Origin: Lachnospiraceae bacterium
Lineage (GTDB): Bacteria > Bacillota > Clostridia > Lachnospirales > Lachnospiraceae
Length of the DNA stretch: 64,000 nucleotides
Direction of reading: 5' to 3'
Assembly (NCBI GenBank): GCA_030536685.1
Contig: JAUNPP010000002.1
Location: 1-64,000, forward strand
Shown here: one piece after another, positions 12,682 through 26,035 of the stretch
How positions within the stretch are numbered: the first letter of the stretch is position 1
Layout: each line of letters starts with the position of its first letter
The notes under the pieces: model-generated
The model's database searches: none
Seen by the model: the letters and a program-made list of their open reading frames with translations, nothing else
What the model was told of the DNA's origin: nothing
Made by a program: the position numbers and the translations under genes

Positions 12682-14372
12682 GTCTGTCCGGAAATGCTTC
12701 TGTCACCCCGCCTGAACCAGGACCAGCAAAACTAAAAACAGGGATTTATGCACGGTTATCCATCAAAGACTTAGGGATTGAAGACGGTGACACAATGGAA
12801 ACACAGATTGCCCTGCTCCGGGACTATGTAACCCAGCAGGAAGACATGGAATTAAGAGAAATCTATGTTGATAACGGATGGTCTGGAACGAATTTTCAAA
12901 GACCGGAATTTAACCATCTGCTGGAAGATGTCAAAGAAGGAAAAATCAACTGCATCGTTGTCAAAGATTTATCCCGCTTTGGCAGAAACTATCTTGAAGC
13001 CGGTTACTATCTGCAGAATGTGTTTCCTTCTTACGGAGTACGCTTTATCGCTATCTATGACAGTTATGACAGCCAGACTTCTGACCCTGATTCTCTGATG
13101 GTCGTTATGAAGAATATCGTGAATGATTATTACAGTAAGGATATCTCAAGAAAAATATCCGCCACGATTGATCTGAAACGGTCACAGGGGCCTCTTTACA
13201 TGGGGTCTCCGCCATACGGCTATAAAATGAATCGTTCCGAACCCAGGCGTTACCTGAAAGATAAGAAGGCGGCAGCTTATGTGCACCTCATCTTCCACTG
13301 GGCATTAGAAGGTTTGTCCCCGTACAGGATTGCCTGCAATCTGAATGATCTGCAGGTTCCTTCCCCGCAGGCACACTATTACCAGAATCACGCAAACAGG
13401 AAATCCGGGAAATCATCTGCAGGAAATACCTGGATTGCAACCACTATTTCCGGTATTCTCTCAAACCCTGTTTATACTGGTAATTACTATTGCAATAAAA
13501 GTTACTTTCGAAAATATGACCCAGGTAATGCAGGAAATATTCCGGAAGAAGAATGGATCTGCTATCCCAATGTCCATGAAGCCTATATCAGCACCGAAGA
13601 TTTTGAGAAATTAAAAAAGAAACGGGAGGATGAAGAACAGCTCCGCCAGGATGCCAGAAAGAAGCACAGACTCCTCCCCTCCTCCCTGAATCTTTTCAAA
13701 GAACTTGTTTACTGTGGAGAATGTGGAAGAAAACTTCTTTTTCAGATCAACAGGGAGAATTTTAAATTCAGTACCTTTCATTGCACCGGTAAAGCATCCA
13801 GGATGTTAAGCGGTCATCCAAGGCTCTCCATTACCTATGCTGCAATAGAGAGTATTGTACTTTATAACCTGCAGACGCAGTTCCGGCTGGCTATTGAAGC
13901 AGATTCTTTCCTGAAGCGGTTATCAATGGAAGATGCCCGTAAGAGATTAAAGTCTCGAAGGCAGGCAGAACTTCAGGTACTGCATTCAAAACTGGCAGCT
14001 ATTGTATGTAAAAAGCAAAAAGCATTTGAGGATATGACAACCGGTCTTTTAGAACCGGCAATCTATAAAATGCAGATAGAGAAGCTGAATCAGGAAACTA
14101 TGTGGCTGGAAGAAGATCAAAAAAATGCACAGAAACGTCTGGAAGAAGTTGATACCTACTTTACTCCGGATAATGAATGGCTTCGGGCTTTCCTGGCAGC
14201 AAACATCTCAGAGGAACTGAATACACCTGCTGTTCGGATTCTCATCAAACGGATTGATATATGGAATGACCGCCAGATATGCATCACCTTTCAATTTGCT
14301 GACTGGATGGAAAAGCTCAATTCCTGTATCGCCGAATGGAAACTATTAGAAATGGAGGATTCAAATGAATAA
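12648..14372 (+). CDS. Large serine recombinase 2 (type A)
   Basis: This recombinase has 574 residues from MARKSR, with ATAAAGGAG just before the ATG inside the previous gene. Catalytic residues are present (YARLS with Ser38; VKDLSRFGRNYLEAGYY). The recombinase domain begins at SPPYGYKMN. The zinc ribbon (YCGECGRKL...FHCTGK) has three clear cysteines and ends differently from its neighbours. The tail is coiled coil. It is a close paralogue of recombinase 6: both begin MARKSR, place the serine at residue 38 and share KINCIVVKDLSRFGRNY. It overlaps the next gene by 8 bases. Confidence 0.92.
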   Translation: MARKSRIAAQLSLSGNASVTPPEPGPAKLKTGIYARLSIKDLGIEDGDTMETQIALLRDYVTQQEDMELREIYVDNGWSGTNFQRPEFNHLLEDVKEGKINCIVVKDLSRFGRNYLEAGYYLQNVFPSYGVRFIAIYDSYDSQTSDPDSLMVVMKNIVNDYYSKDISRKISATIDLKRSQGPLYMGSPPYGYKMNRSEPRRYLKDKKAAAYVHLIFHWALEGLSPYRIACNLNDLQVPSPQAHYYQNHANRKSGKSSAGNTWIATTISGILSNPVYTGNYYCNKSYFRKYDPGNAGNIPEEEWICYPNVHEAYISTEDFEKLKKKREDEEQLRQDARKKHRLLPSSLNLFKELVYCGECGRKLLFQINRENFKFSTFHCTGKASRMLSGHPRLSITYAAIESIVLYNLQTQFRLAIEADSFLKRLSMEDARKRLKSRRQAELQVLHSKLAAIVCKKQKAFEDMTTGLLEPAIYKMQIEKLNQETMWLEEDQKNAQKRLEEVDTYFTPDNEWLRAFLAANISEELNTPAVRILIKRIDIWNDRQICITFQFADWMEKLNSCIAEWKLLEMEDSNE

Positions 14373-15999
14373 TAACCTTGCCTGTTATATCAGGCTTTCC
14401 CTTGCGGATGGCGATCTGGGAGCCGGCAAGGATGAAAGCAACAGTATCAAAAACCAGAGAGAGCTTCTCCTGAATTATATCAGGAGTCATCCAGAGTTTC
14501 AGGGATGGAACATTCATGAATTTGTAGATGATGGCTATACCGGAACAAATGATGACCGTCCGAATTTCCAGCGGATGATTGAGCTGGCAAAAGACGGACA
14601 GCTCCAATGTATCATCGTCAAAGATTTATCCCGTTTTGCAAGAAATTATGTGCTGTGCGGTGATTATCTGGAACAGATTTTCCCATTCCTCGGTGTACGT
14701 TTTATCGCAGTCAATGACCGTTATGACAGTGCCAAAACCACCAGCGTCGATGACAATATGAGTATGGTGCTGAAATCTGTCCTGAACGCTTATTACAGTA
14801 AGGATATTTCACGCAAAATATTTTCTTCTTTTACCCAGAGGATGAAAAAAGGAATTTATCTTGGCAATACACCATACGGATACCTTCCGGATCACGAACA
14901 TCTTCGGTATGCCATTGATCCGGAGGCGTCACAAGTCGTCCGTAAGATCTTTAACCTGGCATTATCCGGAAAGAGTAAACTGCAGATTGCCGCAGCCTTA
15001 AATTCAGAAGGCATACTTCCACCCGGAGAATACAACCGTTTAAATGGAAAGATTCACAAAAATACCCGTGGCATTGCCGCATCCCCTATCTGGGAACCGA
15101 ATAAGATTATCTCTATTTTAAGAAATCAGGCTTATATGGGTGATCGTATCATGCGGAAACAAGTCCCTGTGATTCCCGGTTCAAAAATCCGGAGAAAAGC
15201 AAATGCGTCGGAACAGATTATTCACAGAGATGCCCATGAGGCGATCGTGACCCGGAAGGAATTTGAACGTGTGCAGGAACTGTTTCCTTACCGCCCCAAT
15301 ACAAAGCGCAGTTCAACCCTTGAATATACCCTGAAAGGCGTTGTGCGCTGCGGTACCTGCCGCCGGGCAATGGCACGTTCCCAGAGCAATAAGCATTATT
15401 CCTGTCCACATGCCCGGATGATCGATTCACCCTGCCCGAAAAAGAATTATGAAGTTTCTGAAATTGAAGCGATAATCTTTGAATCACTAAAACCGATGCT
15501 TACCATGGCAGTCGCTGCCGATAACCGCAGGAATAAGCGAAAGCAGTCTGCCGACTGGCTGACACAATGCCAAAAGGAAATCGGTACTGCGGAATTTACA
15601 GAAAAACGTATACAGCAGAAGAAACTGGATGCTTACGAGGACTATTCCAACCAGCGTATTTCCCTCAAAGAATACCAGAAACGAAAAGATTCCCTGAACC
15701 AGCAGGCTTCGGAAAATCAGAAAAAACTGGAAACCTTGAAAGAACAGGAACTTGCTTTTACAAGCGGATTGATTCCACATGAAATTCAGGCTGTCACAGA
15801 TTCTTCCCGAAAATATCTGCACAGCAGCTCACTCACCCGTGATATGGTCACAACCTTTGTCGATAGTATTTATGTCTATGAAGACCACTATGAAATCGTA
15901 TGGAAGTTCCGTGATGTATGGAAACAACTGGAAGAACGTGAAAATACCCCATCAACTCATTCATTACAAGAAAGGATGAACCCAAATGACACGCAATAG
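14365..15999 (+). CDS. Large serine recombinase 3 (type B)
   Basis: This is a 544-residue recombinase with a very short N-terminus (CYIRLS, Ser12). It has KDESNSIKNQ, then IIVKDLSRFARNYVLCGDYLEQIFP, given here in part. The catalytic set is complete, the recombinase domain starts at NTPYGYLPD, and a zinc ribbon (RCGTCRRAMA...YSCPH) and coiled coil follow. It pairs with recombinase 7, which has the same Ser12 position, the same RFAR variant and a similar tail. Its stop overlaps the start of the catalytic-domain-less recombinase 4 by 14 bases. Confidence 0.92.
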   Translation: MNNNLACYIRLSLADGDLGAGKDESNSIKNQRELLLNYIRSHPEFQGWNIHEFVDDGYTGTNDDRPNFQRMIELAKDGQLQCIIVKDLSRFARNYVLCGDYLEQIFPFLGVRFIAVNDRYDSAKTTSVDDNMSMVLKSVLNAYYSKDISRKIFSSFTQRMKKGIYLGNTPYGYLPDHEHLRYAIDPEASQVVRKIFNLALSGKSKLQIAAALNSEGILPPGEYNRLNGKIHKNTRGIAASPIWEPNKIISILRNQAYMGDRIMRKQVPVIPGSKIRRKANASEQIIHRDAHEAIVTRKEFERVQELFPYRPNTKRSSTLEYTLKGVVRCGTCRRAMARSQSNKHYSCPHARMIDSPCPKKNYEVSEIEAIIFESLKPMLTMAVAADNRRNKRKQSADWLTQCQKEIGTAEFTEKRIQQKKLDAYEDYSNQRISLKEYQKRKDSLNQQASENQKKLETLKEQELAFTSGLIPHEIQAVTDSSRKYLHSSSLTRDMVTTFVDSIYVYEDHYEIVWKFRDVWKQLEERENTPSTHSLQERMNPNDTQ

Positions 16000-17242
16000 A
16001 ACATACCCCCTGCCATCGAATGGCGAAAAAACTGCAAGATGGATTCCATATGGTTATCTGTATGATCCAGATGCGCCTGCTTTGATTGCAATCGATCCTG
16101 AAGCATCCAATACCGTCCGATATATTTTTGAGGAATATTTAAAAGGCATCTCGCTTTCTGAAATCTGCAGGATGCTGACAGAGAAAGGCGTTCCCACCCC
16201 TTCGGACCGAAGGGCACAGCTCGGTGCTGCTCCTGCTGAAAAATCCAACACATATTGGAAGGCTACTGCTCTAAATCAAATGTTATTCCATCCTGTATAT
16301 GCGGGAGATTGGATTTTGGAAGGAAGAGTCTGGGACTGCTGTTATTACTATAGCGGTATCCCATATCCGAATGGGATTACAGCGCCTGTCATCGAAAAAG
16401 ACCACCATGAAGCACTGGTGCCAAGAGATTATCTGGTAAAAGCCGCTCAGATGTTCCTTGAACAGCGGAAAGAAAGGAATACCATCCAGCAGAAGCCGTT
16501 TACGGATACGCCAGAGCTATCTCCTTTTTCCATCCTAAACCTTTTGCGCTGTGGAATATGCGGACGATTTCTTACTCCCGCCGAAATTTCCCTTCAAAAT
16601 GGAAAAGGGTTTACAGCATATTTCTGTTCCAGCATCAACCAGAAGAAACCGGGAGACTGCAGTAATTATGTGTACCGCCTGGATACGCTACTCTCACTTG
16701 TTCACGAAATACTCTCTGAAGAACGAAAAAATGCCCTTCGCTTCAGCCAGACTTCTTCCAAAAGGTCACAGGACAAAACCTACACGGTACTTGAAGCGGA
16801 ATTTCAGGAGCAGATTGATCAAACGATAGATGAAGTACGAAGCCTGATAGAAGAACAAAATAAACTGGAACGAAGCTATAAAACACACGGTATCTCTCAG
16901 GAAGAATATGACAGGCTTTCCGCTGATCTGGCAAAACGGATTTCACACGGCGAGCATAAAGTCATGGTTGCCTTAACAAAAATCCGTGATTTCCGAAAAT
17001 TATGCGGCGAAAAAAATGCCTGGGTATCCTTGTTTGCAAATCTTCCGGAAGATTTTACAGATAGCAGTATCGAATACAAGAGATATATCCAGAAAATCAA
17101 TGTTTTCCCTGACCAGCCGCCTGTGATCTTTCTGAAAAGAATGGATGCGAAAAAACAGCTCATGGAAACATTGAACCTTCCCTATAACGACCCGGAAACA
17201 GATACTTTTGACGATATAAATAAAGCCACGGAGGAAAATTAA
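15986..17242 (+). CDS. Recombinase 4 (type C): DNA-binding part only, no catalytic domain
   Basis: This 418-residue protein begins almost directly at the recombinase domain (WIPYGYLYDPDAPALIAIDPEA, quoted in part) and lacks the roughly 145-residue resolvase domain, so it cannot cut DNA. The rest is complete: recombinase domain, zinc ribbon (LRCGICGRFL...YFCSS...GDC), long coiled coil and the tail INVFPDQPPVI. It is not an obvious accident: the ATG has AAAGGA nine bases upstream, the frame is open for 1.25 kb, and it overlaps the previous gene. It is homologous to recombinase 5. A role as DNA-binding partner of the active recombinases is inferred. Confidence 0.88.
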   Translation: MTRNRTYPLPSNGEKTARWIPYGYLYDPDAPALIAIDPEASNTVRYIFEEYLKGISLSEICRMLTEKGVPTPSDRRAQLGAAPAEKSNTYWKATALNQMLFHPVYAGDWILEGRVWDCCYYYSGIPYPNGITAPVIEKDHHEALVPRDYLVKAAQMFLEQRKERNTIQQKPFTDTPELSPFSILNLLRCGICGRFLTPAEISLQNGKGFTAYFCSSINQKKPGDCSNYVYRLDTLLSLVHEILSEERKNALRFSQTSSKRSQDKTYTVLEAEFQEQIDQTIDEVRSLIEEQNKLERSYKTHGISQEEYDRLSADLAKRISHGEHKVMVALTKIRDFRKLCGEKNAWVSLFANLPEDFTDSSIEYKRYIQKINVFPDQPPVIFLKRMDAKKQLMETLNLPYNDPETDTFDDINKATEEN

Positions 17243-18931
17243 ATGGAACCCGAAAATAACACAAAATGCTATCATGCAGCCCTTTATGCAAGAAGAAAAT
17301 TTACGGATACAATCACCAAAGATGAACCGGATCCTACAGCAGCATCACAGATTAAAGAAATGAAAAATTATCTGCAGGATTACCCGGAGATAAAAGTGGA
17401 CGGTATTTACATGGACAACCATAAAATCAAACAGGAAAGTCCACGCCCTGAATTTTACCGTCTGGCAAAGGATTTAAAAAATGGTCTGTATAACTGCCTT
17501 GTCATGACCAGTCTCGACCTTTTTGCCAAAGATCATATGGAAACCAAATACTATCTGCTTAACCTGTTTGCAGTTATGGGAATCCGGATACTGTCCATTC
17601 AGGATAATTATGACAGCCTGTATTCAGAAAAAGCTGCCGGCTCTCATGACCGCTTAGAGGAACTTGTATGCCAGATGGATGCTCTCAGCCGTTCCCGGAT
17701 TCTTTCAAGAAGCTCTCTGCAAAAGAAGAATGACACATTCCTGGAATTTACTTTTACGCCTTTTGGTTACCTTTATAATCCGGATATCCCTTCCAATCTG
17801 GAAATCGACGAAGAAACCGTGGATGCTGTCCGCATGATATTCAAGGAATACCTTTCCGGAACTAATATGAATCAAATTGCGCAAAAGCTGACGGATATGA
17901 GAATACCCAGCCCCTCCCTGCGGAAGGAACAGCTCGGAATGGAATACCGGCATCCCTCTTCCAAAGATTACTGGACATCCGGCGGCGTTCATGCGATCCT
18001 GAAAAACCCACTATATACCGGTGATCTGGTCATTGGCAAACAGCGTTCGGCTCAGTATGTGTTCCGGGATTACAAACGGCATCCGGATCTGGATGGAAAC
18101 GTCATTCCCAACCATCACGTAGCGATCATATCACATGCCGATTTTGAACGGGCCAGATTGATGATGGATATTCTGCATCGAAAGCGCCAGGAAATCATAG
18201 CCAAACGTCCGCAGCCTGCTCTCCCGCCGACACCTTTTGTCAATTCGGTTTATTGCGGCATCTGCCATCGTTCCATGTATCATGTACGCTATAATGCCAC
18301 AAGCAGGAATCCATATTCTATCTATGTCTGTTCCAGTCATCGTCAGAAACTGGAAAATGCCTGCCCGCTCCACCATTTCAGAGTTGATGAAATCATCCCT
18401 GCAGTAAAGGACTACATTATGGAAGAACACAGACTGGCACTTACGATCATTGCGCAAATGCAGGATGGGGAAAACAGTGACTTATATCAGAAAATTGATT
18501 CTCACTTTCAGCAAAGGATTGCAAAAGTCATGGAAAAGGTACAGCAAAATGTACTTGCCCTGACTGCTCTTCCAGATGAAGAGGAAGAAAAACGGGAAAA
18601 GCTGAATACAGAATCCACGCTTCTACGATCAGAACTTGTCGAGATCCTGGATGAAAAGAAAAAGTTCAGTAAAGAATTTACACTGAAAAACAAGTGGCTG
18701 CAGACATATGGCAATATACCGGAAAATTTTGAACTGACAAGGCAATATGGACGTACTCTGGTCGAACGGATTGAGCTGACCCCGGATCAGCCGCTCGTCT
18801 ACACGCCAAAGCATCTCAAAGAGAAAGAATTGCTGCTCCACTATATCACATTGAGCAAGGAGGTTCCTGATGGCACGAAAAAGCAGAGAACAGATACAGT
18901 ATGCGAAAGCGACCGGACAGACATTTCTTGA
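17243..18931 (+). CDS. Recombinase 5 (type C): full length, catalytic residues lost
   Basis: This 562-residue protein has the full large-serine-recombinase layout, but its active site is gone. The Y-A-R-L-S motif reads YARRK, putting Lys19 in place of the serine. The DLSRFGR motif reads SLDLFAK (residues 90-96), replacing both arginines with Leu93 and Lys96. The recombinase domain (TPFGYLYNPD), the zinc ribbon (YCGICHRSM...YVCSSHRQK...ACP) and the coiled coil are intact. The start directly follows the stop of gene 4 (TAAATG). The next gene overlaps it by 62 bases. Intact DNA-binding modules argue for a retained non-catalytic role. Confidence 0.92.
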   Translation: MEPENNTKCYHAALYARRKFTDTITKDEPDPTAASQIKEMKNYLQDYPEIKVDGIYMDNHKIKQESPRPEFYRLAKDLKNGLYNCLVMTSLDLFAKDHMETKYYLLNLFAVMGIRILSIQDNYDSLYSEKAAGSHDRLEELVCQMDALSRSRILSRSSLQKKNDTFLEFTFTPFGYLYNPDIPSNLEIDEETVDAVRMIFKEYLSGTNMNQIAQKLTDMRIPSPSLRKEQLGMEYRHPSSKDYWTSGGVHAILKNPLYTGDLVIGKQRSAQYVFRDYKRHPDLDGNVIPNHHVAIISHADFERARLMMDILHRKRQEIIAKRPQPALPPTPFVNSVYCGICHRSMYHVRYNATSRNPYSIYVCSSHRQKLENACPLHHFRVDEIIPAVKDYIMEEHRLALTIIAQMQDGENSDLYQKIDSHFQQRIAKVMEKVQQNVLALTALPDEEEEKREKLNTESTLLRSELVEILDEKKKFSKEFTLKNKWLQTYGNIPENFELTRQYGRTLVERIELTPDQPLVYTPKHLKEKELLLHYITLSKEVPDGTKKQRTDTVCESDRTDIS

Positions 18932-20600
18932 TCCGGCTTCAGTCAAACCTGCAGTACGGACAGCAATCTATGCCCGTCTCTCATTATATGATATGAACTG
19001 GTCATGCAGGGACAGTATGCAAAACCAGATACATTTGCTGGAATCCTATATGGCTGAACACCCTGAATTAAATCTCACAGACAGGTACATTGACAATGGC
19101 TGGAGCGGTATGGATTTTAACCGCCCAGCCTTTAAACGGCTTTTAACAGACATCCATTCCGGAAAAATCAATTGTATTGTAGTTAAAGATCTCTCCCGTT
19201 TCGGCAGAAACTATGTAGAAACCGGATACTATCTTGAAAATGTATTTCCTTCTCTTGGCATCCGGTTCATTGCAATCAACGATCATTTTGACAACCAGAC
19301 GGCGAGACCGGATGATCTTGGAATCATCCTGAAAAATATCCTGAATGAATTTTTCAGCCGTGACCTTTCACGCCGATACTGCGCCAGTATAGATATCCGC
19401 CGCCAAAAAGGTGTCTTCCGTCACGGTACCCCATATGGCTATATGCATGATCCTGAAAGACCAGATTATCTTACGTTTGACCCTTCTGTATCCCACTACG
19501 TTCATCTTATCTTTCAATGGGCACTGGAAGGTACCCCTACAAGTAAAATCGCACATCGGCTCCGGCAGATGAATGTACCAACTAAGGAACGAATGGAATA
19601 TTTGAGAAATAAAGAAAAAACCAGGCATAAGGGAAGTACCCGCTGGGATGTAAATAGTGTCCGGGAAATGCTGATGAACCCGGTTTACGCAGGAGATTTT
19701 GTATACGGCAAAATACGCAAACGAAAATGTGACCCTTATAACAACCGTGTGATTCCGAAAGAAGAATGGACGGTTATTTCTGATGCTTTCCCCGCCTATA
19801 TCAGCCATGAACAATTTGACCAGATTCAGGAGCGCATGGAAAAAAACACGCAAACATTCTATCAGCAGATAGAAAACAAAAAATCCATCCATGAAGAAGT
19901 ACCGAATTATTTCAAGGATCTGCTTTACTGCGCCATCTGTGGGAAAAAAGTACACTCTTCCCTGGATGCCCGCGAAAAATCACAATCTTATCTGGTTTAT
20001 TTCTGTTTTCAGTATGGAAATGCCAGACATGAACCGCATCCGAGAGTCAATATACATAAAAAACTTCTGGATACCATCGTCCTGGATGAAATACAAAATC
20101 AATTTCGGTTAGCAGAACAGTTTTCTCAATGGCTTCATTCTCCTACCTGTCAGGCTCAGGCAAAGCAATGGCTTCGAAAGCAACAGCAGCTACTTGAATC
20201 ATTAAATCAAGAAGCCGCACAAAATAAATCTGAACTGGCACAGACTTTTGAAAATTTTGCTTCAGCATGTATTACAGAAGAGATGTTTCTCCAACGGAAA
20301 ACACAACTGAAACAGCAGGAAAAGGCGCTTACCGCATCACTGGAAAAACAGGCAAAGCACATGCAGGAAATCCAGCGGGCACTTTCCAAAGCCAATCCCT
20401 GGCTGAATCTGCTCAATCAATTTGCCTACCCGCATTGCTTAACGGAGTCGCTTACCCATACGCTCATCGACAGGATCATTCTGGGACTTGGAGGCGAATT
20501 GCAGATTATCTTCCGGGAGGAGCATTGGCACCATCTGTTTACCCAATATTGTGAGGAAATTCAACATAGTGACATTCAAAAGGAGGCAAATTCTGAATGA
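18870..20600 (+). CDS. Large serine recombinase 6 (type A)
   Basis: This is a 576-residue recombinase starting MARKSREQIQ, with GGAGG six bases upstream, deep inside gene 5. It has the complete active site (YARLS with Ser38; VKDLSRFGRNYVETGYY), recombinase domain (TPYGYMHDPERPDYLTFDPS), zinc ribbon (YCAICGKKV...YFCFQYG) and a glutamine-rich coiled coil. It is the second type A member, the paralogue of recombinase 2. ATGA overlap joins it to recombinase 7. Confidence 0.93.
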   Translation: MARKSREQIQYAKATGQTFLDPASVKPAVRTAIYARLSLYDMNWSCRDSMQNQIHLLESYMAEHPELNLTDRYIDNGWSGMDFNRPAFKRLLTDIHSGKINCIVVKDLSRFGRNYVETGYYLENVFPSLGIRFIAINDHFDNQTARPDDLGIILKNILNEFFSRDLSRRYCASIDIRRQKGVFRHGTPYGYMHDPERPDYLTFDPSVSHYVHLIFQWALEGTPTSKIAHRLRQMNVPTKERMEYLRNKEKTRHKGSTRWDVNSVREMLMNPVYAGDFVYGKIRKRKCDPYNNRVIPKEEWTVISDAFPAYISHEQFDQIQERMEKNTQTFYQQIENKKSIHEEVPNYFKDLLYCAICGKKVHSSLDAREKSQSYLVYFCFQYGNARHEPHPRVNIHKKLLDTIVLDEIQNQFRLAEQFSQWLHSPTCQAQAKQWLRKQQQLLESLNQEAAQNKSELAQTFENFASACITEEMFLQRKTQLKQQEKALTASLEKQAKHMQEIQRALSKANPWLNLLNQFAYPHCLTESLTHTLIDRIILGLGGELQIIFREEHWHHLFTQYCEEIQHSDIQKEANSE

Positions 20601-22198
20601 AGAAAATAATCGCTGCTTATCTTCGGCTTTCTAACGCTGATCATGATCTGTCCGAAAAGGACGAAAGCAACAGTATCACCAATCAAAGACAATTGATAAA
20701 ATATCACATCCAGACCCATGAAGACCTGAAATCCTACCAGTATGAAGAATTTGTAGATGATGGTTACAGCGGAATGAATACAAACCGCCCTTCTTTCCAG
20801 AATATGCTTCGTCTGATCAAAAAGGATAAAATACACTGCGTCATCGTCAAGGATCTCTCCCGTTTTGCAAGAGACTATCTCGTTCTTGGAGATTATGTGG
20901 AACAGATCTTTCCTCTGCTCGGTGTGCGTTTTATTGCTATAAACGACGAATATGACAGCCGTATCAGTGTCACTGCAATGGAAACCGTAAGTATCTCCAT
21001 CAAATCTCTTGTCTATGATTACTACAGCCGTGACCTCGCCCGAAAAATGCGTACCGGTATTATGGAACGTTACAAACACGGAACTATCATCCACGCAGCT
21101 CCCTACGGCTATGTAACCAATTATAAAAAGCATCGCTTTGAGATTGATGAAGAAGCGGCTGCAAATGTCAAACTGATATTCAAACTGACCATTGAGGGAC
21201 AATCCCCCAGCGATATCGCCCGGTATCTGAATAATTCCGGTGTTCCTACACCGGCAGTGTACAACCGACTCCATCCGGAACTTAAAAAAACAGGATACAA
21301 AATATGTAAAAATCCAGTTTGGACAAACAGCAGTATCCGCACTATCATCAGTAATAGAACTTATACCGGTGTGCGTATCGGTCATAAAACCTCCACTGAA
21401 AACTCTCCGCATGTTTCAGAAAAAGTAGATCCTGCGGACTGGTTCATCTACGAGAATGCTCATACGCCTATCATAAGTGAGGAAGATTACGAACTTGCAC
21501 TTTCCAAATTGAAACGGTTTACTCCCCGGGATCCCAACCGCACGAAACAATATGTCAACAACTGTGTCCTTCAAACAAAACTTCGCTGCGGTCATTGCGG
21601 TCGTGCTGTTGAATACCGCACTTCCGGCAGGCTTGCCATTTGTCCACAGGCCCGATTTCTGCCAAATGCCGATTCATCTGCAACCCATCCGACACTGAAC
21701 ATTACCGTATATGTGTATGAGTCGCTAATGCCTATACTAAAGGCGCTTCTTATAGAAAAAGAACGCTTACAAAATGAAATCAATGAAGGAAAAGCAATCC
21801 TCAAAAGATGCAAGGAAACCCTCTCAAGAATCGAAGAAAACAAACGCCAGCTTTCCGAAAAAAAGCGTATCCTGTATGAGGCTTATGTCACAAAAGAAAT
21901 GAATCGGGAAACATACTTACAGAAAAAAGCGGAACTTGATAAACAGGAACAGGATTTAAAACAGGAATACCAGCAGCAAAAGCAACAGGAAATGTATTAT
22001 ACAACCCTTGCTATTCCTGACGAAATCAATATGCTTTCTGCCTCTGCCAGTTCTGATATTGATAAAGAATTTCTAACAAAAGATATGGTAAAAACCTATG
22101 TCCGTACAGTCTACATTGATGGCCCGGAAGATTATAGAATCGAATGGAATTATGATAATCTGTTTCGTCAGCTCGCCGGGAATGAAAATGTGGACTGA
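20597..22198 (+). CDS. Large serine recombinase 7 (type B)
   Basis: This 533-residue recombinase is the last of the array. It has YLRLS (Ser12), KDESNSITNQ, VKDLSRFARDY, the recombinase domain (APYGYVTNYKKHRFEIDEEA), a zinc ribbon (RCGHCGRAVEY...AICPQ) and a long charged coiled coil. All catalytic residues are present. It is the paralogue of recombinase 3. It starts in an ATGA overlap with gene 6. The second copy of the relaxase palindrome begins 14 bases after its stop. Confidence 0.93.
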   Translation: MKKIIAAYLRLSNADHDLSEKDESNSITNQRQLIKYHIQTHEDLKSYQYEEFVDDGYSGMNTNRPSFQNMLRLIKKDKIHCVIVKDLSRFARDYLVLGDYVEQIFPLLGVRFIAINDEYDSRISVTAMETVSISIKSLVYDYYSRDLARKMRTGIMERYKHGTIIHAAPYGYVTNYKKHRFEIDEEAAANVKLIFKLTIEGQSPSDIARYLNNSGVPTPAVYNRLHPELKKTGYKICKNPVWTNSSIRTIISNRTYTGVRIGHKTSTENSPHVSEKVDPADWFIYENAHTPIISEEDYELALSKLKRFTPRDPNRTKQYVNNCVLQTKLRCGHCGRAVEYRTSGRLAICPQARFLPNADSSATHPTLNITVYVYESLMPILKALLIEKERLQNEINEGKAILKRCKETLSRIEENKRQLSEKKRILYEAYVTKEMNRETYLQKKAELDKQEQDLKQEYQQQKQQEMYYTTLAIPDEINMLSASASSDIDKEFLTKDMVKTYVRTVYIDGPEDYRIEWNYDNLFRQLAGNENVD

Positions 22199-23423: not shown

Positions 23424-24809
23424 TTAAATATATAATTTCTGATCACCAATCGGAACATTAACCATAGTCATTGCTACACACTCACCATTTTTGATAATAT
23501 AGCATTCTACAAAATGTGGACCTCCGAATTCTGATTCCTCTCTTTTCGACTTACCACACTTTTTCTCAATTTGGCCTCGAATTTGATTTTTCTTTTCTGC
23601 TATTGATCCAACATTTCGAACTTTCCACCAGACTTCATAAGGATAAGGAACATCTGTTTCAGCTTCAAAATCTATTGTTAATCCGTGTGGCATCAACTTA
23701 TGAAACCGTGGAAATTTTTCCAGGAATTTATATAACGGCTGCTGATGAATTCCATTTGCCTGTACTTTACATGATACCCACACATTATAGCAGTCATTTA
23801 TCGGTACCATATCTTCAATAAATTCCTCTGTGTCACTATACTGTGACTTTTTCAAAGAAGCTGCCTCAAACATACCTTTTTCTTTATCTGACAAATCAGA
23901 CCAATAATCATGATTAAAAAATTTATTCCATGCTTCGAGTGCCTGTTTATAAGTACATTTTTCATCTAAAAGCACATTCAATGAATCTATTTTGCTACTT
24001 AATCTTAAGAGCCAATTATCCATTTTATCATAATGATTCTGTGCTGTAAGAAGTGATAACTCTGTATCTACCGGATTAGAAACTTCAGTACTTTCTTCAA
24101 GACGATTTTTCACTGCAACCATTGTATTGTAGAATATTTCGTCAATTCTTTCATGTTCTGAATCAAATACTTCATCACATATCACTGACTGAATTAGTCC
24201 TCCTGGCATATTAACCCATCCAGCTCTCGATTTACAGAACATCTTTGACAAACGTACTACTTTTCTTAGCCCAGTCCCTTTTGATTTTACTTCATCCAAA
24301 AACCACTTGGTAATTGCTGCCGGATTACGTGTTTTCCATTCCGTACCTGCATGTTCGTAAGTATACTCCGTTTTACCTTCTTCTCTAAATCTCCTGTAAA
24401 CAGCAAAATCCACATGATAACCATCTGCATACTGAACTCTTACACAATTCGTTTTGCATTCAGGAGACGTATTAAATTGTCCACACTTCTTTTCGAGTGC
24501 TTTGCACACAACTCTTCTTGCTTGTAACGGACTCAAATCTCCCAAATTGCTCTTATCAAAAACAATTGCTACGTCAATATCATAATCGTTATTATCATTT
24601 TGTACAACGGTAGACATTGCCATACTCCCTTGAACACGCTTTTCAGCTATAGAATAGTTTGTTTTTTTATCCTCATTGTAAAGTTTCAGACCTTCTTCCA
24701 GACGTTTTACGTTTAAATTTTTCTTTTCACGCAAATTTTGTTGTTTGTCATTGCTTAAAACAACATAGTCTTTATAGAATCGTTCAAATTCTTTTGAAGC
24801 ATCGTACAT
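23424..24809 (-). CDS. CBASS CD-NTase (cGAS/DncV-like nucleotidyltransferase) with AGS-C-like domain
   Basis: This 461-residue enzyme should make a cyclic oligonucleotide alarm signal on phage infection. The polymerase-beta-type active site is complete: GS at residues 61-62, the metal-binding DID at 77-79 and the third aspartate at 134 (HVDFAV). The C-terminal 80 residues (YEVWWKVRNVGSIAEKK, GGPHFVECYIIKNGECVA) match the AGS-C sensor domain often linked to such enzymes. The start is 10 bases after the SAVED gene's stop, with AAAGGGGTG upstream. No Cap2 or Cap3 gene is present, so this is a minimal type I layout. The nucleotide product cannot be read from sequence. Confidence 0.87.
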   Translation of the reverse strand: MYDASKEFERFYKDYVVLSNDKQQNLREKKNLNVKRLEEGLKLYNEDKKTNYSIAEKRVQGSMAMSTVVQNDNNDYDIDVAIVFDKSNLGDLSPLQARRVVCKALEKKCGQFNTSPECKTNCVRVQYADGYHVDFAVYRRFREEGKTEYTYEHAGTEWKTRNPAAITKWFLDEVKSKGTGLRKVVRLSKMFCKSRAGWVNMPGGLIQSVICDEVFDSEHERIDEIFYNTMVAVKNRLEESTEVSNPVDTELSLLTAQNHYDKMDNWLLRLSSKIDSLNVLLDEKCTYKQALEAWNKFFNHDYWSDLSDKEKGMFEAASLKKSQYSDTEEFIEDMVPINDCYNVWVSCKVQANGIHQQPLYKFLEKFPRFHKLMPHGLTIDFEAETDVPYPYEVWWKVRNVGSIAEKKNQIRGQIEKKCGKSKREESEFGGPHFVECYIIKNGECVAMTMVNVPIGDQKLYI

Positions 24810-24818
24810 CTATAAACA

Positions 24819-25919
24819 TCACCCCTTTACTAATTTTCCACGATTTGAAGACGTTTTATCAGTAATCACTATGCCAAAAGAATATTTTGGTGTTTCTGTA
24901 TGTACATAATGATAAGAAATAATCTGTGGTAAACGATTATTATTATGAGCAAACAATTTTCCTAACTCTAAAGATACGCAGCTAGGTATTGATGCCACAA
25001 AATGCACTTTCTGCAAATATGGATATTTTTGCTTCAAGTCTTCAATCTGATTAAGAACATACATCGCATATTTATCCAACTGTTTCATTGTTGTAATGAT
25101 ATTGTCATCAGGATTTGGTAAATCAATTCTCACAACGTCCATTCCTGCAAACTGTATTAAATCTCCCGAATTTACTTTTCGAGTTATGGAAAGTGCCACA
25201 ACTACATCCGTCGCATTGTTATCAAGTGCACTTGGATATTGAGTATCAAGTGCATCGTATGTTTTTCTTTTTTTTCCTGTTTTTAATTCATAAAATTTAT
25301 TCTCAGCTCTTTTATACTCAAAATATCTTCTTACATTTCCTGATCCCAAATACGTTCCTGCCAAAATTGTATACGGAATAGGTGCCATGCCGGTAAAACA
25401 TGATTTAAAATCCTTACTTCGATTAACAAATGCAGTACACTGTTTTTCTATTTTCCTGACAATAATATCGTTTATCTTCTCTGTCATTTTTATATCAAAA
25501 ATGTCTACAAAGTCTACGATAACTTCTTTTACTTTAAAATCTTCCAGCTTCAAATCTGATACATTTTTTGTATCACTAATTTCATGCTGTGCGAACAAAC
25601 CTAACATATTCAAAACAAAAATTCTGTCTTTTATGTTCTGTCTGTAATAGATTCCCACAACTATAAGCAGTGCTCCACATACTATTGCAACATAATCCAC
25701 GCCCGTGGATAACTCCATATTAAACTGAGAACCTATTATTGATAACACCATTTCTTTAGTTCCCGGAAAAGCAGAACACACCAATGAAATTCCTGCTGTA
25801 ACCATACTCACAGACAAGTCTGTTGCTGAGTTTGCTTTCATAAGGTACCTTCTAATTATTACCACAGATACGCAAAGTACAATAATTATTCCTATAACAG
25901 CTACATAATACTTAATCAC
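24819..25919 (-). CDS. TM-SAVED CBASS effector (Cap14-like)
   Basis: This effector has about 366 residues from a GTG start. A hydrophobic helix at residues 4-23 and further membrane-like segments near 33-50 and 78-97 precede a cytosolic SAVED domain (GMAPIPYTILAGTYLG; VVVALSITRKV; VHFVASIPSCVSLELGKL; YSFGIVIT). SAVED domains bind cyclic oligonucleotides, so binding would activate the membrane part and damage the infected cell. The GTG is preferred because AGAGGAG lies 8 bases upstream; the more upstream ATG at 26030 would lie within the promoter. It is the first gene of the CBASS pair, and this layout fits the Cap14 group. Confidence 0.85.
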   Translation of the reverse strand: MIKYYVAVIGIIIVLCVSVVIIRRYLMKANSATDLSVSMVTAGISLVCSAFPGTKEMVLSIIGSQFNMELSTGVDYVAIVCGALLIVVGIYYRQNIKDRIFVLNMLGLFAQHEISDTKNVSDLKLEDFKVKEVIVDFVDIFDIKMTEKINDIIVRKIEKQCTAFVNRSKDFKSCFTGMAPIPYTILAGTYLGSGNVRRYFEYKRAENKFYELKTGKKRKTYDALDTQYPSALDNNATDVVVALSITRKVNSGDLIQFAGMDVVRIDLPNPDDNIITTMKQLDKYAMYVLNQIEDLKQKYPYLQKVHFVASIPSCVSLELGKLFAHNNNRLPQIISYHYVHTETPKYSFGIVITDKTSSNRGKLVKG

Positions 25920-25952
25920 ACTTTCATTTCTCCTCTCTAAATTTCTATTTTC

Positions 25953-26002
25953 GAGTGCTAACATCTGCGTTATTGTTAGCACTCCACTGTATCGAGTGCT
26001 GA
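25953..26002 (-). promoter_or_regulatory. CIRCE-type (HrcA) operator of the CBASS operon
   Basis: TTAGCACTC-N9-GAGTGCTGA at 25976-26002 matches the CIRCE consensus TTAGCACTC-N9-GAGTGCTAA at 17 of 18 positions with the exact 9-base spacer. A third perfect half site, GAGTGCTAA, lies at 25953-25961. The main element covers the expected transcription start, the classic CIRCE position. CIRCE is known as the HrcA repressor site of groESL and dnaK operons. Confidence 0.85.
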
Positions 26003-26006
26003 CAAT

Positions 26007-26035
26007 AATATACCATACTCTCACTTCCATGGCAA
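26007..26035 (-). promoter_or_regulatory. Sigma-A promoter of the CBASS operon
   Basis: On the minus strand TTGCCA (26030-26035) and TATATT (26007-26012) are separated by exactly 17 bases. The predicted start, near 26000, falls inside the CIRCE element. Confidence 0.8.

Follow-up and report, generated by a model that had tools for sequence, protein, structure and literature searches.

The adjacent regulators known for CBASS operons (CapW, CapH/CapP and CapK/CapS) sense DNA damage, and their genes lie beside the operon. CapW is a dimer that binds a palindrome and represses CBASS until infection induces it; the induction is dispensable for defence (PMC9122588). CapH with CapP and CapK with CapS also place immune operons under transcriptional control by a stress signal; they are linked to the operon and activated by DNA damage (PMC13373217). 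The HrcA/CIRCE regulon, which comprises the class I heat-shock genes in Bacillus subtilis, has chaperones and proteases as its known targets. In the published model, GroE aids repression by HrcA at CIRCE, and repression is relieved once unfolded protein engages GroE (PMC8533110). In Streptococcus thermophilus, type I restriction genes are reported to be heat-induced, and CIRCE was found only at the dnaK and groESL operons (PMC3192767). Our literature search found no link between CIRCE or HrcA and CBASS; the initial annotation of the DNA analysed here had likewise known of none.

The window (the whole stretch of 64,000 nucleotides that was analysed) contains a two-gene CBASS operon on the minus strand. 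The upstream gene (24819 to 25919) encodes an effector of 366 amino acids, which has a SAVED domain (Pfam PF18145, E=7.2e-26) and N-terminal transmembrane helices (SAVED-2TM). It was matched by the PADLOC models PDLC02003 (SAVED_TM, E=8.7e-79) and PDLC00676 (2TM effector), and its sequence relatives include the solved structures 9om7 and 9wq2. The second gene (23424 to 24809) follows after a gap of 9 bp and encodes a DncV-like nucleotide cyclase of 461 amino acids with an AGS_C domain (Pfam PF18134 and PF21654; PADLOC PDLC00778, E=2e-190). The residues of its GS and DxD motifs are invariant in the alignment. The ATG listed as the start codon of the effector (26030) precedes the point where transcription is predicted to begin, and a ribosome-binding site (AGAGGAG, 25930 to 25936, minus strand) stands 10 nt ahead of a GTG at 25919. 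The GTG is therefore likely the better start.

The operon has as neighbours genes for an esterase and for serine recombinases, and a gene of the EpsG family. The large serine recombinase genes adjoin the operon on the plus strand (14365-22198, with 15986-17242 in the run), and those searched against Pfam, at 14365, 17243, 18870 and 20597, have Recombinase or Resolvase matches. This run suggests a mobile element or an integration hot spot.

We scored the CIRCE consensus operator, TTAGCACTC-N9-GAGTGCTAA, with up to three mismatches allowed. The only match in the window is TTAGCACTC-N9-GAGTGCTGA at 25976-26002, an unstranded feature predicted to bind an HrcA dimer. On the operon strand (minus) it reads TCAGCACTC-N9-GAGTGCTAA, with half sites at 26002-25994 and 25984-25976. 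The arms match the consensus at 17 of 18 positions and the 9-nt spacer is exact. One hundred dinucleotide-shuffled controls of the window gave no match. The site stands just after a sigma-A promoter that is directed into the CBASS operon, with a -35 box (TTGCCA, 26030 to 26035, minus strand), a spacer of 17 nt and a -10 box preceded by TG (TATATT, 26007 to 26012, minus strand). The operator begins 4 nt after the -10 box. The predicted transcription start, about 7 nt past the -10 box and near 26000, falls inside the first half site. The likely GTG start codon follows the operator at a distance of about 56 nt, which places CIRCE in the 5' leader. The promoter motif by itself is not significant (2 found, 2.1 expected in shuffles); its weight as evidence is its placement relative to CIRCE. 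We also considered an operator serving a divergent gene and rejected this, as an upstream neighbour of credible size is absent. The initial annotation had proposed the two-gene operon, the sigma-A promoter, the 17-of-18 operator with exact spacing, the start inside it and a third half site after it. The PADLOC matches bear out the operon, and each of the other features was recovered.

The genome (3.49 Mb, 97.8% complete) was searched with the same limit of three mismatches and has five CIRCE sites, where a reversed control pattern gave none. Three precede groES-groEL (C181:8686), hrcA (C181:43516) and htpG (C237:3791). A further one is at a contig end (C174:9944-9970), with its downstream gene off the contig; it overlaps a -35 box (TTGACA), as CIRCE does at hsp20 and clpB in relatives. 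The fifth is the CBASS site. The hrcA gene, which has a CIRCE of its own, is a full-length open frame (PF01628, E=3.7e-64). Both hrcA and additional CIRCE sites, which the initial annotation had suggested looking for, are thus present.

To place the operon among its relatives, we used an alignment scan with one genome per species, which gave 42 loci with related cyclases; the CIRCE scan took in 50 related loci (374 kb). One of the 50 has a true CIRCE. This locus (L016, Claveliimonas monacensis DSM 108991, also a member of Lachnospiraceae) is the closest relative, with 70% identity in the cyclase and 61% in the effector over aligned codons, and its operator is perfect (18 of 18 arm positions). 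The promoter TTGCAA-17-TACAAT is followed by 4 nt, the CIRCE, 20 nt and the ATG of the effector. The promoter spacer (17 nt) and the gap between the -10 box and CIRCE (4 nt) are the same in both operons, and the arms are identical at 17 of 18 positions. C. monacensis has hrcA and seven CIRCE sites, at hrcA, htpG, groES, two hsp20 genes, clpB and CBASS.

In the tree, the window operon and L016 are sisters in one clade (support 99/97). Fourfold-degenerate sites are only 36-44% identical between them, which is near saturation, and the 120 nt upstream of the -35 box align no better than shuffled DNA. The operator has therefore been retained through selection or been acquired twice; for the same reasons, a recent transfer bringing the operator along is unlikely. 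The simplest history would be a single gain of CIRCE on the branch that leads to the window operon and L016. The next relative in the tree, L045 (cyclase 65%), is without CIRCE, and no CIRCE was found at the CBASS loci of the other relatives with upstream sequence. Four genomes (G055, G398, G399 and G400) have a related CBASS without CIRCE, yet carry CIRCE elsewhere. In L018 (genome G401) the DNA upstream of the operon is missing. Conservation in related loci, a point raised by the initial annotation, thus holds for L016, with equal spacing, and does not extend to L045 and more distant relatives. As these lack the site, the link between CIRCE and CBASS appears to be specific to this lineage, a small CBASS clade within the collections searched.

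Relatives of the operon are rare. A single-protein scan of genome contigs gave no further ones, and searches of family, order and class genomes gave very few. Viral contigs had no relatives of the operon. Plasmids and phages had distant relatives only, and the fetched plasmid loci were without CIRCE. At one locus (L031:2845-2871), a palindrome with four mismatches, TAAGCTCTC-N9-GAGAGCTTA, stands at the corresponding place, ahead of a distantly related SAVED-2TM effector. It apparently trails the end of the upstream gene and may be a terminator or a diverged operator; it was excluded from the CIRCE count.

The locus shares with the HrcA regulon of B. subtilis the operator sequence, the 9-nt spacer, the position at the promoter and start, and the presence of hrcA in the genome. 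It differs in its target, which is an antiviral CBASS operon instead of chaperones or proteases. As in CapW/BrxR-controlled CBASS and BREX operons (PMC9122588), the promoter has a palindrome and a dimeric repressor, here a predicted one, would limit the operon before infection. CapW is encoded beside its operon and responds to single-stranded DNA, whereas the regulator here would be an unlinked HrcA, expected to act as a sensor of protein folding. No dedicated regulator gene of the CapW, CapH/CapP or CapK/CapS type was found in or next to the operon. The effector and cyclase families (PDLC02003/PDLC00676 and PDLC00778) are those of SAVED-2TM CBASS, most relatives of which lack CIRCE.

These comparisons make it likely, in our judgement, that the two-gene SAVED-2TM CBASS operon is under the trans control of the core-genome HrcA through CIRCE. 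Judging from the sequence, HrcA very probably represses the operon, which would be derepressed together with the chaperones. For HrcA at this operator, we infer binding, repression, stress induction and relevance to phage. We assume that HrcA of this organism follows the published GroE model (PMC8533110). In an unstressed cell, HrcA kept active by GroEL would occupy CIRCE and hold down the levels of the cyclase and the membrane effector, which are potentially lethal. Unfolded proteins, from heat, other proteotoxic stress or possibly phage infection, would occupy GroEL and leave HrcA inactive, and CBASS would then be transcribed alongside groESL, hrcA-grpE-dnaK and htpG. Production of the nucleotide signal would still depend on a separate activation of the cyclase; therefore HrcA would set the amount of CBASS and not act as its trigger. 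The operator at the predicted start and its presence in the closest relative suggest that protein-folding stress, and not DNA damage, turns this CBASS on.

Two readings of the site would remove HrcA from this scheme. A chance match has nothing of weight in its favour and its probability is negligible. The composition model predicts 0.003 sites with at most one mismatch per genome and 3e-7 in the 300 nt upstream of the operon, and the nearest relative has an independent, perfect CIRCE in the same place; together with the shuffles and the whole-genome control, this led us to reject it. The site could also be a CIRCE-like palindrome for another regulator or a hairpin in the leader RNA. The third half site (TTAGCACTC, 25961-25953, minus strand) follows CIRCE after 14 nt on the operon strand, and the distance to the first half site is 41 bp. 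As a 3' arm it could pair with 25974-25984, where the second half site lies, into a leader hairpin of 11 bp. The z-score of this hairpin is only -1.68, and the C. monacensis locus lacks the third half site. The arms and the spacing fit the HrcA consensus in both genomes, and the arms equal those ahead of groES, hrcA and htpG in the same genome. We consider this second reading very improbable. A leader RNA element was rejected, with no Rfam match in the window between 20000 and 34000 and an unremarkable hairpin. A hairpin formed by the second and third half sites (25953-25984) may affect the stability or translation of the mRNA.

If HrcA is the repressor, the question is what the repression serves. 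HrcA may be a handy, ever-present silencer, with CIRCE acquired by a mobile CBASS to stay low in any Firmicute host. A portable operator would be of use, given the serine recombinase run beside the operon and the sparse, scattered occurrence of its relatives. Without infection, CBASS under CapW is likewise repressed, and its CapW-dependent induction is not needed for defence (PMC9122588). Against this, many other operators would silence equally well, and CIRCE would make a suicide system respond to any heat shock, which is a cost unless induction is useful. We regard the silencer as possible, though doubtful; the same reserve applies to its corollary, in which induction by heat would be incidental and repression would persist throughout any phage infection. 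In the other reading, GroEL would be bound up or commandeered by proteins of the phage, HrcA would become inactive and the dose of CBASS would rise during infection, so that the chaperonin is a guarded target. The heat-shock response of E. coli uses sigma-32, and this species is not known to have HrcA. In E. coli, infection with phiX174 leads to strong activation of the heat-shock chaperones (PMC8125068), and the titration model of HrcA (PMC8533110) also favours a sensing of phage. Carrier-state phages of Campylobacter have a gene for a GroES substitute, and in these cultures the HrcA regulon is altered (PMC4534711), but it is reported as repressed, which is the opposite direction. Transcriptional induction is perhaps also too slow to count within one infection. 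By analogy with these systems, derepression of the operon by phage is plausible, while the full reading, with a guarded chaperonin, seems rather unlikely to us. Only tentatively, then, would we suggest that chaperonin load gates CBASS expression and that GroEL availability serves as a phage sensor.

Control of CBASS by the core heat-shock repressor, if true, would add protein-folding stress to the inputs of bacterial immunity. It would also connect abortive infection with chaperone control, on which many phages depend or with which they interfere. The promoter can be tested directly and the CIRCE arms are easy to mutate; C. monacensis DSM 108991, which has the perfect site, is a named cultured strain.

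CIRCE marks the heat-shock regulon specifically; sites at other genes form a small minority. Among 128 sites surveyed in Clostridia, 118 precede groES, hrcA, htpG, hsp20 or clpB and two precede lon-like genes. The family sample (about 17 genomes, 75 sites) has 72 sites at the former genes, two at lon-like genes and one at a defence-type ATPase; in the class sample (20 further genomes), heat-shock genes lie behind 46 of 53 sites and not behind the other 7. As around 6% of the CIRCE-like sites surveyed precede genes without an evident chaperone or protease role, a CIRCE match alone does not prove heat-shock control. CBASS stands out among the non-heat-shock targets by a repeated, near-perfect site. 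By eye, CIRCE-like sites in two family members (L143:1501 and L179:1501) lie before Lon-type protease-like genes. One-mismatch sites were also seen in other Clostridia families (L318:1501, L324:1501, L326:2152 and L340:1501). The genes near these, judged by eye, are nucleotidyltransferase, MarR-like and LysR-like genes, which are not obvious heat-shock genes.

One genome (G028, C67 near 97408) has an AAA ATPase gene (L186:5822-7372, minus strand) that adjoins a restriction-modification pair of the NgoBV type. The ATPase matches an AriA-type model of PADLOC (1.9e-85) and Pfam AAA_15. Its upstream DNA has TTGACA-17-TATAAT followed by ATAGCACTC-N9-GAGCGCTAA, with two mismatches, 36 nt before the start. 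We treat this gene as a possible second defence gene under HrcA and as a lead only, because two-mismatch matches arise by chance (one in 45 genomes in the control) and a relative of the ATPase with 69% identity (G157) is without CIRCE. The logic of chaperonin load may extend to other defence genes such as this one.

Exact CIRCE sites in viral contigs lie at phage groES/groEL, hsp20 and htpG genes, besides apparently chance sites; inspection of these contigs by eye recognised no defence genes. In phage-like contigs (L196, L208, L214, L218, L229, L237, L241, L252, L261, L263 and others), a small heat-shock gene (hsp20-like, by eye) begins about 28 nt after a perfect CIRCE. Phage chaperones have thus apparently been placed under the HrcA of the host.
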